A stretch of 37,991 nt of DNA from contig JAFKJU010000042.1 of the NCBI GenBank assembly GCA_017305935.1, positions 1-37,991 of the forward strand, read 5' to 3'. A program made the translations under genes and the position numbers. This stretch comes from Hyphomicrobiales bacterium (GTDB lineage: Bacteria; Pseudomonadota; Alphaproteobacteria; Rhizobiales; Rhizobiaceae). This document shows positions 11,262 through 18,475 of this stretch, piece by piece (position 1 is the stretch's first letter; every line of letters begins with the position of its first letter). The notes beneath the pieces were generated by a model. The model was not told the DNA's origin. It saw only the letters and a program-made list of their open reading frames with translations, and made no database searches.

Positions 11262-11461
11262 ACCGCGACCTCAGCAAAGCAGCCGCATCGTTCCTGGCCT
11301 ACCTGTGCTCCCAACGGTTCGCCCGGGTCGATATAGGCTTCATCGACGGTAGCACGCGTTACCTGCAGCCGCTAATCCGACGCGGCTTGGTCAGGATGGA
11401 CGGCTATGTTGTCGTTGTGACTGATGCCGGCAAAAGCGTTGGTTACGGGGAAGCGCTATGA
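11258..11461 (+). CDS. Small winged-helix-like protein
   Basis: A 67-residue protein. The pattern TRYLQPLIRRGLVRMDGYVVVVTDAGKSV (about residues 33-61) matches the end of a winged helix-turn-helix: a recognition helix, then a two-strand wing, then T-x-x-G-K. Such small proteins in phages are often annotated only as hypothetical. It is joined to its neighbours on both sides by 4-bp ATGA overlaps. A DNA-binding role is plausible but unproven. Confidence 0.65.
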   Translation: MNRDLSKAAASFLAYLCSQRFARVDIGFIDGSTRYLQPLIRRGLVRMDGYVVVVTDAGKSVGYGEAL

Positions 11462-12297
11462 CGAGCCCATACCGCATCGAGGGACCGGCGCTCATCTCGT
11501 TTTCTGGCGGTCGGACTTCGGCTTTCATGCTGCACGAGATCATAAAGGCGCACGGCGGGCAGCTTCCCGACGACGTTGTGGTCGCCTTCGCCAATACCGG
11601 TAAAGAGCGCGAAGAAACCCTCCGATTTGTATTCGAGTGCGGGTCGCGTTGGGGAGTTCTGATCCACTGGCTTCAATGGCTCCCCCGCAAGCCCGGCTTT
11701 GAGGAGGTCGGTTACAACAGCGCAGCCAGAAACGGCGAGCCGTTTCGCGACTTGATCGACCGCAAGCAGCGCCCGCCGAACCATATGCAGCGCTATTGTA
11801 CGGAGCATTTGAAGGTGAGAACGCTCATGGCTTTCGCCGCGTCTCTCGGCTGGACGAGCTACCTTGAGGTGATCGGCCTGCGCTACGACGAAGGCCACCG
11901 CATATTGAAGGGCCTCGCCAACGCTGAGAAGCATGGTCGGCGAAATTCGTACCCGCTCTCGAAAGCAAAGGTGCGAAAGGCCGACGTGATGGAATTTTGG
12001 GCGTCTCAGCCGTTCGACCTCGGCCTGAAACCTTGGGAAGGAAATTGCGATCTCTGCTTCCTCAAAGGAAGGCGCATCCGCGAGCGAATTATCCGTGACC
12101 AACCTGACGCGGTAGACTGGTGGATAACGCAAGAGACGACGCCTCGTGGCGGAAAGGGTGTTACGGGCTGGTTCGATAAGGACATCAGCTTTGCGGCCCT
12201 TGCTGATTATGTGCGTCGGTCTCCGCTGCTCTTCGATGAGATCGGCGATGACGAGCACGATGTCGAGTGCGGCCTTCATTGCGGAGGCGGGGAGTGA
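11458..12297 (+). CDS. PAPS-reductase-like protein (adenine nucleotide alpha-hydrolase fold)
   Basis: A 279-residue protein of the PP-loop/PAPS reductase superfamily. The PP-loop SFSGGRTSA lies at residues 14-22. The C-terminus has ECGLHC (270-275), very close to the ECGLH signature whose cysteine is catalytic in PAPS and APS reductases. C113 and the C197-x-x-C200 pair lie 84 residues apart, similar to the iron-sulfur ligand spacing of APS reductases, although only one cysteine is present at the first position. The substrate is unknown. In a phage, sulfur assimilation or nucleic-acid thiolation are both possible. It overlaps both neighbours by 4 bp. Confidence 0.75.
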   Translation: MTSPYRIEGPALISFSGGRTSAFMLHEIIKAHGGQLPDDVVVAFANTGKEREETLRFVFECGSRWGVLIHWLQWLPRKPGFEEVGYNSAARNGEPFRDLIDRKQRPPNHMQRYCTEHLKVRTLMAFAASLGWTSYLEVIGLRYDEGHRILKGLANAEKHGRRNSYPLSKAKVRKADVMEFWASQPFDLGLKPWEGNCDLCFLKGRRIRERIIRDQPDAVDWWITQETTPRGGKGVTGWFDKDISFAALADYVRRSPLLFDEIGDDEHDVECGLHCGGGE

Positions 12298-15388: not shown

Positions 15389-15651
15389 ACACGGACGAAA
15401 AGGCAACGCTCTACAGCGCCGCCGTCATCGAGGCTCTTGCCGTTGCTGGCCGGGAGATCGGCGAGCCGGACATCAACGCGGCGATCGCCGCTCTGACCCA
15501 TGCGCAGGCCTACCTCATCGCGAAGATCACCGACCCCATCGTTAGGCGCTCGGCAGAGAAGGGGGTGATTGAGGGGCTCGGCACGCTTATCGCTGCCGAG
15601 GTCAATGCCCGGGTTGCGCTTGAGATGCGGCGGGGAGGGACGGCGCAATGA
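15385..15651 (+). CDS. Small helical protein of unknown function
   Basis: An 88-residue, mainly helical and alanine-rich protein (ATLYSAAVIEALAVAGREIG at the start, AAEVNARVALEMRRGGTAQ at the end). No motif recognised. It is linked by 4-bp overlaps both to the preceding basic protein gene and to the adenine/cytosine-N methyltransferase, so it is translated with them and may belong to the modification block. Confidence 0.6.
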   Translation: MNTDEKATLYSAAVIEALAVAGREIGEPDINAAIAALTHAQAYLIAKITDPIVRRSAEKGVIEGLGTLIAAEVNARVALEMRRGGTAQ

Positions 15652-16481
15652 CCGAATACGATCCCCGCCGCGATGCCTTCGACAGCTACAACGTTGCAAT
15701 TGCGGCTAATCGCGCGCGTCTTCTGCAGGAGCGTTGCCCGGCGGCGAAGCGCGTCGAGGTCATCGGGCAATGCGAACTGTATCTCGGCGACTGCATGGAA
15801 ATCCTGCCGGCGCTGGGCAAGGTCGATGCCGTCGTCAGCGATCCGCCCTACGGCGCGGACCACCCCGGCGACAGTTCACGTTTCAGTGGCGGCAACGCGC
15901 GGCGCGGGAAAGGTTCGGTTCACGGCAAGATCGCTGGCGATGCCGGTCCCTTCGACCCCCGACCTATGCTTTTGGGGAAGGCGCAAATCCTTTTTGGCGC
16001 GAACTACTTCGGGCATTTGCTGGGACCGGGATCATTCCTCGTCTGGTCTAAGCGCCGCCCGCACGCCTACGGAACCTTCCTGGGCGATGGCGAGGTCGCG
16101 TGGTTCTCCAAGGGGCGCGGGGTTTATCTCTTCGAGAAAATCTTCGCGGGATCGGCCATGGCGCTTGAGCATGGTGGCGACCCTTATGCGCCGAGCGCGC
16201 ATCCTTTCCAGAAGCCGATATCGGTCATGGAATGGTGTTTGGGCCATGTGCCAGACGCGGAAATTATCCTCGACCCGTTCATGGGCAGTGGCACGACGGG
16301 CGTTGCGTGTGTCCGTCAGCGGCGATCCTTCATCGGCATCGAGATTGACCCGGTCTATTTCGCCACGGCTTGCCGGCGCATCCGTCAAGAGCTTCGCCAA
16401 CCGGCAATGCTCGATGCGCCCGCGCCGACCGCCGCCAAGGTGGAACAAATAGGTCTTGATCTCGGGAGGGGTAGTGAATGA
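15648..16481 (+). CDS. DNA N6-adenine/N4-cytosine methyltransferase
   Basis: A 277-residue amino-methyltransferase using S-adenosylmethionine. Motif IV DPPY is at residues 65-68 and motif I FMGSGTTG at 211-218, so IV precedes I (beta-class order). DPPY rather than SPPY favours adenine but does not settle it. GIEIDPVYFATA (230-241) is the motif II region. No restriction enzyme lies beside it, so it is probably an orphan methyltransferase that protects phage DNA or alters regulation. It overlaps the cytosine methyltransferase gene by 4 bp. The target sequence cannot be read from the protein. Confidence 0.9.
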   Translation: MTEYDPRRDAFDSYNVAIAANRARLLQERCPAAKRVEVIGQCELYLGDCMEILPALGKVDAVVSDPPYGADHPGDSSRFSGGNARRGKGSVHGKIAGDAGPFDPRPMLLGKAQILFGANYFGHLLGPGSFLVWSKRRPHAYGTFLGDGEVAWFSKGRGVYLFEKIFAGSAMALEHGGDPYAPSAHPFQKPISVMEWCLGHVPDAEIILDPFMGSGTTGVACVRQRRSFIGIEIDPVYFATACRRIRQELRQPAMLDAPAPTAAKVEQIGLDLGRGSE

Positions 16482-18475
16482 CCGCCTCATACATCGATGT
16501 CGATATCAAGCATTTCCATCTCTTCTGCGGCCTCGGCGGCGGCGCTCGCGGCTTTAATCGTGGCCAAGCGCGGGTTGGCAGCCTGCGGGCAAAGTTCCGC
16601 TGCATCGGGGGCATCGACAGCGATCCCGCGTCGATCCGCGACTTCAGCCGGCGCGCTGGCGCGCCCGGCACAGTCATGGACCTTTTCAGCCGCGAGCAAT
16701 ACTGCGCGTTCCATGGAAAGGAGCCGCCGGCCGGCTGGCGGGAGGCATCGCCTCTTGACGTCTTCCTCGCCGCTGCCGGGGAGTTCCCGAACATCGTGTT
16801 CTTGTCGGCGCCCTGCAAAGGCTTCTCCGGCCTGCTGCCCGAGAAGTCCAGCATCACGGACAAGTACCAGGCGCTCAATGCCCTGACCCTGCGCGGCGTC
16901 TGGCTCATGCTTGAAGCCTTCAAGGACGATCCGCCCGAGCTGATCATCTTCGAAAACGTCCCTCGCATTGCCAAGCGCGGGCGCGGCCTTCTCGACCAGA
17001 TTGTCGCACTCTTGCGCAGCTATGGCTATGCCGTCGCCGAGACGACGCACGATTGCGGGGAGATCGGCGGCCTTGGCCAAAGCCGGAAGCGCTTTCTCCT
17101 GGTCGCGCGGCATCAGAAGAAGGTGCCGCCATTCCTCTACGAGCCAGAGCGTCGCCGGCTGCGGGGCGTCGGTGAAATTCTCGAAGCCTTGCCGCTGCCC
17201 GGCGACTTGGCCGCCGGCCCGATGCATCGCATGCCGTCGCTGCAATGGAAGACATGGGTTCGCTTGGCCTTCGTAGAAGCCGGGTCCGACTGGCGGTCGC
17301 TCAATAAGCTGGCGGTTGAGAACGGGCACCTCCGCGATTTCGGCATCCTGCCGGATGCGCAGTGGCATGGCGGCGTGCTCGGCGTCGTCGGTTGGAGCGA
17401 GACGGCCGGCGTGGTTGCCGGCCGATCGTCGCCGACCAATGGCTCGTTCAGCGTTGCGGATCCTCGCTTCCCGGCCAACGGCAACGAGTATTCGCAATAT
17501 GGTGTCCGCGAGTGGGCCGACACGATGGGCGCCGTGATCAACGTGAAGTCGCCCGGGCAGGGCTCGTTCTCGGTCGCCGACCCGCGCATCGAGGGGAAGC
17601 CGCGCTTCAACAATGTCTTTCGCATCGTCCCGTGGGTCGGCGCGTCGCCGGCGGTTGCAGGACCGGGCGGCCCGGCCGGCGGCTTGGCCGTAGCCGACCC
17701 GCGTCCGTCCGACCTGGCCGATAAGGCCCATGTGAAATATCGGGTGACGGCCTATGGCGAAGCTGCGGGGACGGTGATCGCGGCCTCGACCACCGGCAAC
17801 GGAGCATTCGCGGTGGCCGATCCGCGCACCGGCGGCGAGGAGGCTTCACGCTACAAGCATAGCTACCGCGTTACCGAATGGGGCGGTAGTGCTGGGACGG
17901 TGACGAGCGGACACTCGCCGTCGAACGGGGCTATTTGCGTTGCTGACCCCCGGCCGGTCGGCCTTAATGCCAAGCGTGATCACTATCAAACCGGTGGCCA
18001 TTATGGTGTCGTGACGTGGGACGATACCTCGCGCGCGGTGCCCGGCTTTGCAAAATACGACCGTGGGCCGTTCGCCGTTGCGGACCCTCGCGACGTCGAG
18101 CCCCAGCCGATTGAGGCACTGCCGAAGCCGGAGGATCGCCTCGTCGCCGTGATCCGCGCGCTCGATGGAACTTGGCATCGCCCCTTCACGACGCTTGAGC
18201 TGGCCGCCCTGCAATCGCTCGTCGATCCTGACGAGCTCGCCCCGGACTTCTCGCTCGACGGCGCGTCGGATGCCGCATGGCGAGAGCGCATCGGTAACGC
18301 TGTGCCGCCGGCTGCCGCTGAAGCAATCGCCGGCGTCATGGGAACGACCATCCTCCTCGCCCGCGCCGGCGAGACCTTTGTCCTGTCGAGCCAGCCGATT
18401 TGGGTTCGTCCGCTGGCCGCCGCGCTCGCGATCGACCACTCGCCGAACGACGTCCTTCTTCAGGGAGAATATTGA
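16478..18475 (+). CDS. DNA C5-cytosine methyltransferase with six tandem repeats
   Basis: A 665-residue cytosine-5 methyltransferase, about twice the usual size. Motifs: I HLFCGLGGG (14-22), IV SAPCKGFSG with catalytic C113, VI FENV (158-161), VIII QSRKR (201-205), IX-like FTTLELAALQSLVD (570-583), X RIGNAVPP (604-611). Between VIII and IX, where the target recognition region lies, there are six repeats of about 40 residues (about 296-538). Each reads roughly Y-R-V-x-x-W-x-x-x-A-G-x-V, then a glycine-bearing loop, then F-x-VADPR; the VADPR ends fall at 330, 370, 409, 450, 492 and 538. The unit resembles the segment normally found once before motif IX. It may give extra or altered target recognition. 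Confidence 0.92.
   Translation: MTASYIDVDIKHFHLFCGLGGGARGFNRGQARVGSLRAKFRCIGGIDSDPASIRDFSRRAGAPGTVMDLFSREQYCAFHGKEPPAGWREASPLDVFLAAAGEFPNIVFLSAPCKGFSGLLPEKSSITDKYQALNALTLRGVWLMLEAFKDDPPELIIFENVPRIAKRGRGLLDQIVALLRSYGYAVAETTHDCGEIGGLGQSRKRFLLVARHQKKVPPFLYEPERRRLRGVGEILEALPLPGDLAAGPMHRMPSLQWKTWVRLAFVEAGSDWRSLNKLAVENGHLRDFGILPDAQWHGGVLGVVGWSETAGVVAGRSSPTNGSFSVADPRFPANGNEYSQYGVREWADTMGAVINVKSPGQGSFSVADPRIEGKPRFNNVFRIVPWVGASPAVAGPGGPAGGLAVADPRPSDLADKAHVKYRVTAYGEAAGTVIAASTTGNGAFAVADPRTGGEEASRYKHSYRVTEWGGSAGTVTSGHSPSNGAICVADPRPVGLNAKRDHYQTGGHYGVVTWDDTSRAVPGFAKYDRGPFAVADPRDVEPQPIEALPKPEDRLVAVIRALDGTWHRPFTTLELAALQSLVDPDELAPDFSLDGASDAAWRERIGNAVPPAAAEAIAGVMGTTILLARAGETFVLSSQPIWVRPLAAALAIDHSPNDVLLQGEY
17363..18092 (+). 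repeat. Six coding repeats of about 120 bp in the methyltransferase gene
   Basis: Encodes residues 296-538 of the cytosine methyltransferase. Units are 39-46 residues long and end in VADPR (encoded GT/GC-x GAC/GAT CC-x CG-x). The protein pattern is kept better than the DNA, so the repeats are old and under selection at the protein level. Confidence 0.85.

Follow-up and report, generated by a model that had tools for sequence, protein, structure and literature searches.

A predicted phage C5 cytosine DNA methyltransferase with six tandem units resembling target recognition domains

C5 cytosine DNA methyltransferases with tandem target recognition domains (TRDs) are already known from phages. 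The fold shared by DNMT1, M.HaeIII and M.HhaI (PF00145) has a single TRD. The multispecific enzymes of Bacillus phages, namely M.SPRI, M.phi3TI, M.rho11I, M.H2I and M.phiBssHII, have TRDs that are approximately 40 residues long and some two to five specificities each. Excerpts of two reports attribute multiple targets in Bacillus phages to tandem TRDs (PMC8936443; PMC5923457). Here we describe a gene from a stretch of 37,991 nucleotides of a Hyphomicrobiales bacterium, called the window throughout (contig C76, positions 1-37991, within a 6.5 Mb genome), which is phage DNA as judged from its genes. The gene is predicted to encode a C5 methyltransferase with six TRD-like units. We consider it probable that this is a multispecific anti-restriction enzyme of the kind found in Bacillus phages, with TRD cassettes that are more numerous and exchangeable.

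A second group of described enzymes is also pertinent. The protein Pyei1_p05 of a Paracoccus phage is approximately 69% identical to JCM7686_0772 and JCM7686_2655, according to the accessible part of one report (PMC6536676). When expressed in E. coli, the latter two proteins gave partial protection at many cytosine sites, which the authors term relaxed specificity in the portion of their report at hand (PMC3925955).

The window protein is placed among the C5 cytosine DNA methyltransferases, as a predicted enzyme, by a PF00145 match at residues 14-216 (54.3 bits against a cut-off of 22). The C5 motifs I, IV, VI, VIII, IX and X are present in order (Table 1). Across 58 aligned sequences, the window protein among them, the key residues of these motifs are either invariant or conserved to at least 90%. 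We take the motif I region to be the site of S-adenosylmethionine (SAM) binding and Cys113 of motif IV to be the catalytic residue. The core catalytic motifs are intact, as stated in an earlier note made from the sequence of this DNA. An AlphaFold model of the whole protein is good in its catalytic part and matches the fold of ordinary C5 methyltransferases in a comparison with the PDB, which is silent on the units because the array part of the model is uninformative. A PDB sequence search with the window protein gave no match at E values up to 1, and a search with the family profile gave 24 weak matches to C5 enzymes, with E values of 0.03 and up.

The presence of a six-unit array between motifs VIII and IX is confirmed. 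The VADPR ends of the units at residues 330, 370, 409, 450, 492 and 538 were reproduced exactly as first noticed, and the lengths from one VADPR to the next are 40, 39, 41, 42 and 46 residues for units 2-6. Unit 1 has approximately 34 residues when counted from the end of the preceding domain. A unit profile, whose seeds included the window's own units, detects all six with E values from 8e-11 to 4e-17, and thus the array is not a product of chance. The earlier note had described a homogeneous array of one module. This part does not hold, because the six units represent six sequence types in the order G-D-I-B-l-A. The codons for VADPR are spelled six different ways across the six units, which places the repeat at the level of protein. 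A DNA-level recombination joint at VADPR is likewise not supported, because these codons vary.

In many ordinary C5 enzymes, motif IX is directly preceded by a single segment of this kind, YGRMVWDEPAPTLTTQFYGFGNGRFGHPEQDR of the relative L163 being an example. The resemblance of the units to this segment, which had been proposed from the letters alone, is borne out by an hhalign score of 26.4 over 31 columns between the unit profile and a profile of 15 ordinary segments, hand-chosen from 27 extracted proteins, wherein the best of 40 column-shuffled controls reached 12.1. This match shows, at the level of sequence, that a unit is equivalent to the single TRD segment of ordinary C5 enzymes. With six units of this kind, the window enzyme has at least two TRD modules between motifs VIII and IX. 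The L163 segment aligns with the TRD end of DNMT1-type enzymes in PDB sequences, through HPEQHR into motif IX, and we presume that the DNMT1 loop residue numbers can be placed on its aligned letters. By this mapping, each unit probably holds both DNA-reading loops, with loop I located before a Y-G-V strand and loop II after a T-V pair. The CpG site is contacted in mouse DNMT1 by two TRD loops (residues 1501-1516 and 1530-1537), one of which makes base-specific hydrogen bonds, the loop numbers being swapped between the text and a figure legend in the available part of the report (PMC6316889). An excerpt on M.MpeI also gives two TRD loops, at residues 292-309 and 315-329 (PMC10899764).

A scan of viral contigs gave at least 600 stretches, 594 of those being relatives, and a scan of genome contigs gave 292 stretches with 245 relatives. 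The best 80 of each were kept. The survey of repeat number that the earlier note had suggested finds four to nine units in 161 proteins, comprising these 160 relatives and the window protein. There are four units in 2 proteins, five in 34, six in 102, seven in 13, eight in 4 and nine in 6, and these counts are biased towards six because the best 80 were kept by likeness to a six-unit query.

Unit types were defined by average linkage at 55% identity among 102 proteins that are less than 90% identical to one another. Their 621 units form 57 clusters, of which 20 contain a single unit, and occur in 91 arrangements. A type is repeated within one protein in only 3 of the 102, or in 4 if the catch-all label '?', which covers 5 units of 5 clusters, is counted. 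When types were shuffled with position kept (2000 shuffles), repeats occurred in a mean of 28.6 proteins and a minimum of 17, an excess that is not a clean probability because shuffling removes shared descent. Units are no more alike within a protein (identity 0.356) than between proteins (0.363). Tandem duplication with homogenisation would give the opposite of this non-redundancy.

Close relatives differ by the gain, loss or replacement of whole units. Near-identical N-terminal (N) domains are joined to different arrays in L018 (CDFBLA) and L124 (CDBLA) and in L032 (CDERBA) and L146 (CDEBA), at 98.6% identity for both pairs, as well as in L007 (GDIBKA) and L087 (GDIBKPA) at 98.0% and in L120 (CMEBLA) and L151 (CMFBLA) at 96.5%. 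All DNA segments of L018 and L124 are matched at 75-95% identity save unit F, for which the best value is 55%. Between L120 and L151, unit E is without a counterpart (57%), and unit C, of the same type in both, is matched at 62%. Counting pairs that include redundant proteins, the unit order is the same in 75 of 75 pairs with N domains at least 99% identical, in 586 of 600 at 95-99%, in 102 of 156 at 90-95%, in 19 of 126 at 85-90% and in 13 of 560 at 80-85%. The ends of the arrays follow a grammar and the inside is mixed, since the first unit belongs to one of five types (C, G, O, J and W) in 96 of the 102 proteins and the last is of type A in 99. In one relative (L095), a short local run of extra VADPR copies is located between two units at residues ~375-390, a pattern suggestive of the loss of a unit through slippage or recombination within the array.

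Type identity is carried mainly in two loops around a strand that varies freely. Among the 17 types with at least 10 members (518 of the 621 units), loop I (columns 1-8) holds 1.2-2.4 bits of type information, columns 11-19 of the strand hold 0.1-0.9 bits and loop II (columns 22-27) holds 1.8-2.7 bits. Columns 20, 29 and 30 also carry type information (1.46-1.87 bits), and columns 11 and 13-15 vary freely inside types. Because the types were defined on those same columns, loop I (columns 1-8), loop II (20-30) and the strand (9-19) were clustered separately as well, with a main comparison of 336 units after those more than 80% alike were removed. In this comparison, the adjusted mutual information between the two loops is 0.67, 0.61 and 0.54 at 20, 30 and 57 clusters, and that between either loop and the strand is 0.15-0.20 (0.15-0.17 at 20 clusters). 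Without the removal, the values are 0.65-0.74 for the two loops and 0.21-0.38 for loop and strand. Loops that agree around a strand that does not are expected if both loops read one DNA target. The agreement represents a paired constraint and not proof of joint reading, because shared descent aligns the loops and a fast strand loses the signal.

Selection was also evident. The loop is the better conserved part within 10 of 13 types. In eight pairs with the same unit order, the ratio of nonsynonymous to synonymous divergence (dN/dS) is 0.103 for the units, 0.067 for loop II, 0.158 for the strand, 0.018 for VADPR, 0.125 for the N domain and 0.112 for the C-terminal (C) domain, and these ratios are rough because synonymous differences are approximately 0.5 per site.

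There is a second family of array enzymes, and the described proteins with relaxed specificity are likely linked to it. The C5 enzyme of Rhizobium phage RR1-A belongs to this other family and has nine units of the form P-x-x-T-V/I-T. Members in Paracoccus phage Pyei1, phi2LM21 and ARM81ld have eight, six and five units, respectively, and 10 of 10 proteins examined have between four and nine. The named members are JCM7686_0772/2655, Pyei1_p05, RHXG_00060 of RR1-A and ARM81ld_p31, wherein JCM7686_0772 is tied to the array enzymes through its similarity to Pyei1_p05 and not by comparison of its own sequence. A unit profile built from six of those ten proteins, with 3 of its 39 seed segments out of register, matches the unit profile of the window family weakly (score 15.4, with 11.1 for the best of 40 controls). 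The window's own genome carries a gene of the RR1-A family on another contig (C77; L205:1087-3111, + strand), with an open frame of 675 residues and six units. A genome search with PF00145 gave only this gene for that genome and missed the window gene, and thus the tallies of that search are lower bounds.

If this prophage-encoded enzyme is multispecific, one catalytic domain (residues ~1-296 and 539-640) would serve a cassette array of six TRDs, each consisting of two DNA-reading loops on a conserved scaffold that ends in VADPR. One unit at a time would be brought to the major groove next to the active site, where it would direct methylation of a short target of its own. Whole units would be gained, lost and exchanged by phages and plasmids such that each enzyme holds a largely non-redundant set from a pool of dozens of types, and the array would protect the DNA of the element from several host restriction enzymes. 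A separate target for each unit, their use one at a time and the anti-restriction role are inferred, the first with indirect support from the non-redundant types and the agreeing loop pairs. In this manner, a single enzyme may methylate several different sequences and guard phage DNA against several host restriction enzymes. More tentatively, and with somewhat less than even confidence, we propose that the six units are six working TRDs with different targets (up to nine in relatives), that phages and plasmids of Proteobacteria and Bacillota put such arrays together by combining cassettes out of a shared pool of dozens, and that an array records which restriction specificities its element has met. 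To our knowledge, six different targets would be more than in any other C5 enzyme.

Several points weigh against a multispecific enzyme. In the AlphaFold model, residues 288-565 mostly have a predicted local distance difference test score (pLDDT) below 50. Shared descent inflates the statistics for both non-redundancy and loop agreement, and the partly fixed order of the units is something that free cassettes have no need of. Within the strand, column 10 is also informative about type (1.72 bits). In 3 of the 13 types (A, G and H) conservation is not higher in the loop, and the dN/dS of loop I plus linker (0.120) is no lower than that of the catalytic domain. For the second family, the available portions of two reports describe the breadth as relaxed specificity with partial protection and not as several discrete targets, and arrays are unmentioned there (PMC3925955; PMC6536676). 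JCM7686_0772/2655 gave no protection against R.PamI in the accessible text (PMC3925955), and phi2LM21_p23, with its six units, protected none of the tested sites in E. coli according to an excerpt of its report (PMC5537653). There is also the structural question of how one active site serves up to nine recognition modules.

The alternative that survives best, albeit as an unlikely one, is an enzyme of relaxed specificity or high affinity wherein the units jointly form an extended DNA-binding surface, giving a clamp or processivity, and methylation is broad with little choice of sequence. Many short DNA-binding units in one chain would presumably raise affinity, and array enzymes of the second family are indeed described as relaxed, with partial protection of many sites, in the parts of the reports at hand (PMC3925955; PMC6536676). 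However, a clamp has no need for units that are different and non-redundant, nor for type information in two loops that agree across a freely varying strand, and loop II is more constrained than that strand. The earlier note had offered several target sites, a DNA clamp or a decoy as possible roles for the array. The first of these is the best supported, and the other two are disfavoured because the unit types are non-redundant, loop II is under selection and loop I agrees with loop II. A homogeneous repeat, a clamp or a decoy was rejected as first choice on the grounds of non-redundancy, selection and the centring of type information on the loops.

It is improbable that the enzyme has a single target read by one unit, most likely the last unit A next to motif IX, with the rest being structural or regulatory passengers. 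The placement of unit A fits this proposal, since it is last in 99 of the 102 proteins and occupies the location where ordinary enzymes have their sole TRD segment. Passengers should decay, however, and purifying selection on the units is about as strong as on the catalytic domain. The scaffold aspartate is kept in 621 of 621 detected units, though profile detection favours intact ones. There is a stretch of degenerate appearance beyond the 5 units of a Paenibacillus bovis protein, but no such look in the four detected units of P. lautus.

Less probable still is a decoy, in which a variable surface escapes host proteins that bind the methyltransferase or titrates a host factor. The turnover of whole units between near-identical enzymes does resemble diversity under antagonism, but the variation between types lies mainly in two loops equivalent to the DNA-reading loops and is not surface-wide, and loop II is the more conserved part within 10 of 13 types (A, G and H being opposite) and in the selection test. 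Equally remote is base hypermodification, in which the array would give broad coverage to the transfer of a non-methyl group as by CmoX, a cytosine C5-carboxymethyltransferase in the excerpted report (PMC12783734), given that 8yf3 ranks 13th in the PDB comparison, amid many ordinary C5 methyltransferases of similar Z, and that no SAM-modifying gene was recognised among 25 window open reading frames (ORFs) searched, several of which are without a family match.

Relatives of the window enzyme are found on phages, plasmids and bacterial genome contigs. For the best 80 of the 245 genome-contig relatives, the record titles name alpha-, beta- and gammaproteobacteria as most of the hosts. Among 36 tblastn records at 1e-5, the named phage with the closest relative is Sinorhizobium phage PBC5, whose gene is 65% identical and has eight units. 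At an E value of 0.01, the N domain matches 49 records from phages and 168 from plasmids, of which 34 and 144, respectively, are 60-80% identical, and among these the units were examined in PBC5 and five others. Two Paenibacillus plasmid proteins, with N domains 49-53% identical to that of the window protein, have 4 and 5 units. Three distant relatives are of ordinary size (343-363 residues), two of them with one weak unit-like match (E values of 0.004 and 0.02) and the third without any. DNA searches of phages with an ordinary relative as the query gave no match.

Some individual relatives deserve mention. Two bacterial-genome relatives are closer than PBC5 among the matches listed (L085, 68% identical; L162, 73%). 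In both, the reading frame follows the family as far as RIGN of motif X and then continues in unrelated residues, which reflects either a frameshift or an assembly error. In phage PA8 (MZ285879.1 36860-37887), tblastn matches the family in two pieces that span three genes annotated as hypothetical and amount to 63% of the query, and this copy is either broken or misannotated. On a Microvirga plasmid (L211:1770-4510), a single-TRD C5 methyltransferase is found beside a very short patch repair gene and the DISARM gene drmD, and the one TRD segment of this enzyme is the ordinary equivalent of the units.

The phage-type genes of the window include those for a GpA-type terminase, a lambda-type portal, an S49 protease, a RecE-like exonuclease, a repressor, a primase/helicase, a major head protein and a baseplate protein. 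A gene for an N6/N4-type methyltransferase is located directly upstream of the array gene with a 4-base overlap, and the window phage encodes at least two DNA methyltransferases. No restriction endonuclease partner of the array enzyme was recognised among 25 distinct window ORFs scanned, some ORFs being unscanned. A gene resembling 3'-phosphoadenosine-5'-phosphosulfate (PAPS) reductase is present at window positions 11458-12297 (phrog_424), and similar genes are found near array methyltransferases in RR1-A, Flotzy and two Paenibacillus plasmids. A recurrent link between the two, which appeared in hand-picked records, was rejected because fetched flanks contain such a gene at only 20 of 160 loci (9 of 101 non-redundant).

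Table 1. Features of the array methyltransferase gene and its upstream neighbour in the window
Feature	Positions	Strand	Residues and sequence or type	Basis or remark
C5 cytosine DNA methyltransferase gene with six TRD-like units	16478..18475	+	665 residues	ORF; PF00145; PHROG_32684, PHROG_116
Motif I region	16514..16555	+	13-26, FHLFCGLGGGARGF (includes FCGLGGG)	conserved in alignment
Motif IV	16805..16831	+	110-118, SAPCKGFSG	P112, C113 invariant in 58 sequences
Motif VI	16949..16966	+	158-163, FENVPR	E159, N160, V161 invariant
Motif VIII	17078..17104	+	201-209, QSRKRFLLV	Q201, R203, R205 invariant
Unit 1	17366..17467	+	297-330, type G	
Unit 2	17468..17587	+	331-370, type D	
Unit 3	17588..17704	+	371-409, type I	
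Unit 4	17705..17827	+	410-450, type B	
Unit 5	17828..17953	+	451-492, rare type l	nearest units elsewhere 61% identical (type F)
Unit 6	17954..18091	+	493-538, type A	
Motif IX	18176..18217	+	567-580, HRPFTTLELAALQS (RPFTTLE568-574)	H567-T571 invariant
Motif X region	18281..18325	+	602-616, RERIGNAVPPAAAEA (GNAVP606-610)	G606, N607, P610 invariant
N6/N4-type DNA methyltransferase	15648..16481	+		PF01555 E 3e-15; phrog_67 E 8e-41; context, outside array

Relatives in the records listed are annotated only as 'DNA cytosine methyltransferase' or 'hypothetical protein'. If our interpretation is correct, this gene, widespread in phages and plasmids, encodes an anti-restriction device that is modular and has multiple targets, and its units constitute a large natural set of C5 TRD modules from which to learn how loop sequence relates to DNA target. 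It could also explain the relaxed specificity reported for the second array family. The natural differences of whole units between near-identical enzymes make the target of each cassette testable by methylome comparison.

The window enzyme and the RR1-A family are both phage C5 enzymes with a long array before motif IX, the RR1-A units being approximately 35 residues long. By sequence comparison, the window protein is not a member of the RR1-A/JCM7686_0772 family. Its BLASTP match to RR1-A is not significant (E value of 0.078), RR1-A is not among its 36 tblastn records at 1e-5, and phrog_23072 and phrog_29443, which are strong in RR1-A and ARM81ld, are not matched by it.

With the Bacillus phage enzymes, the window enzyme shares a phage-encoded C5 enzyme with several short TRDs between motifs VIII and IX, and by analogy it probably works as they do. 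The window enzyme, RR1-A and the phi3T enzyme all match the broad PHROG_116. The BLASTP match between the window protein and the phi3T enzyme (phi3T_150) is not significant (E value of 0.024), and no Bacillus phage record is found among the 36 tblastn matches at 1e-5 or among those of the N domain at 0.01. The earlier note had contrasted a homogeneous array in the window with distinct domains in Bacillus phages, and this contrast is not supported, since the window array is not homogeneous and visual inspection of the phi3T enzyme shows a pair of short segments whose cores are of the same kind (SPTLTT... and EPAFTVN...). The unit profile gives no match in the phi3T enzyme, and of the two segments the ordinary-TRD profile finds one (E value of 0.006) and the second-family profile finds the other weakly (E value of 2.3). 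The window family differs from the Bacillus enzymes in having 4-9 units and a large shared pool with exchange of whole units. Among titles and the beginnings of abstracts, a coverage that leaves the core TRD papers outside, there is no report of these arrays in proteobacterial phages. What appears to us to be new is the size of the array, the drawing of exchangeable types from a shared pool, the pairing signal of the two loops and a likely connection with the enzymes of relaxed specificity.

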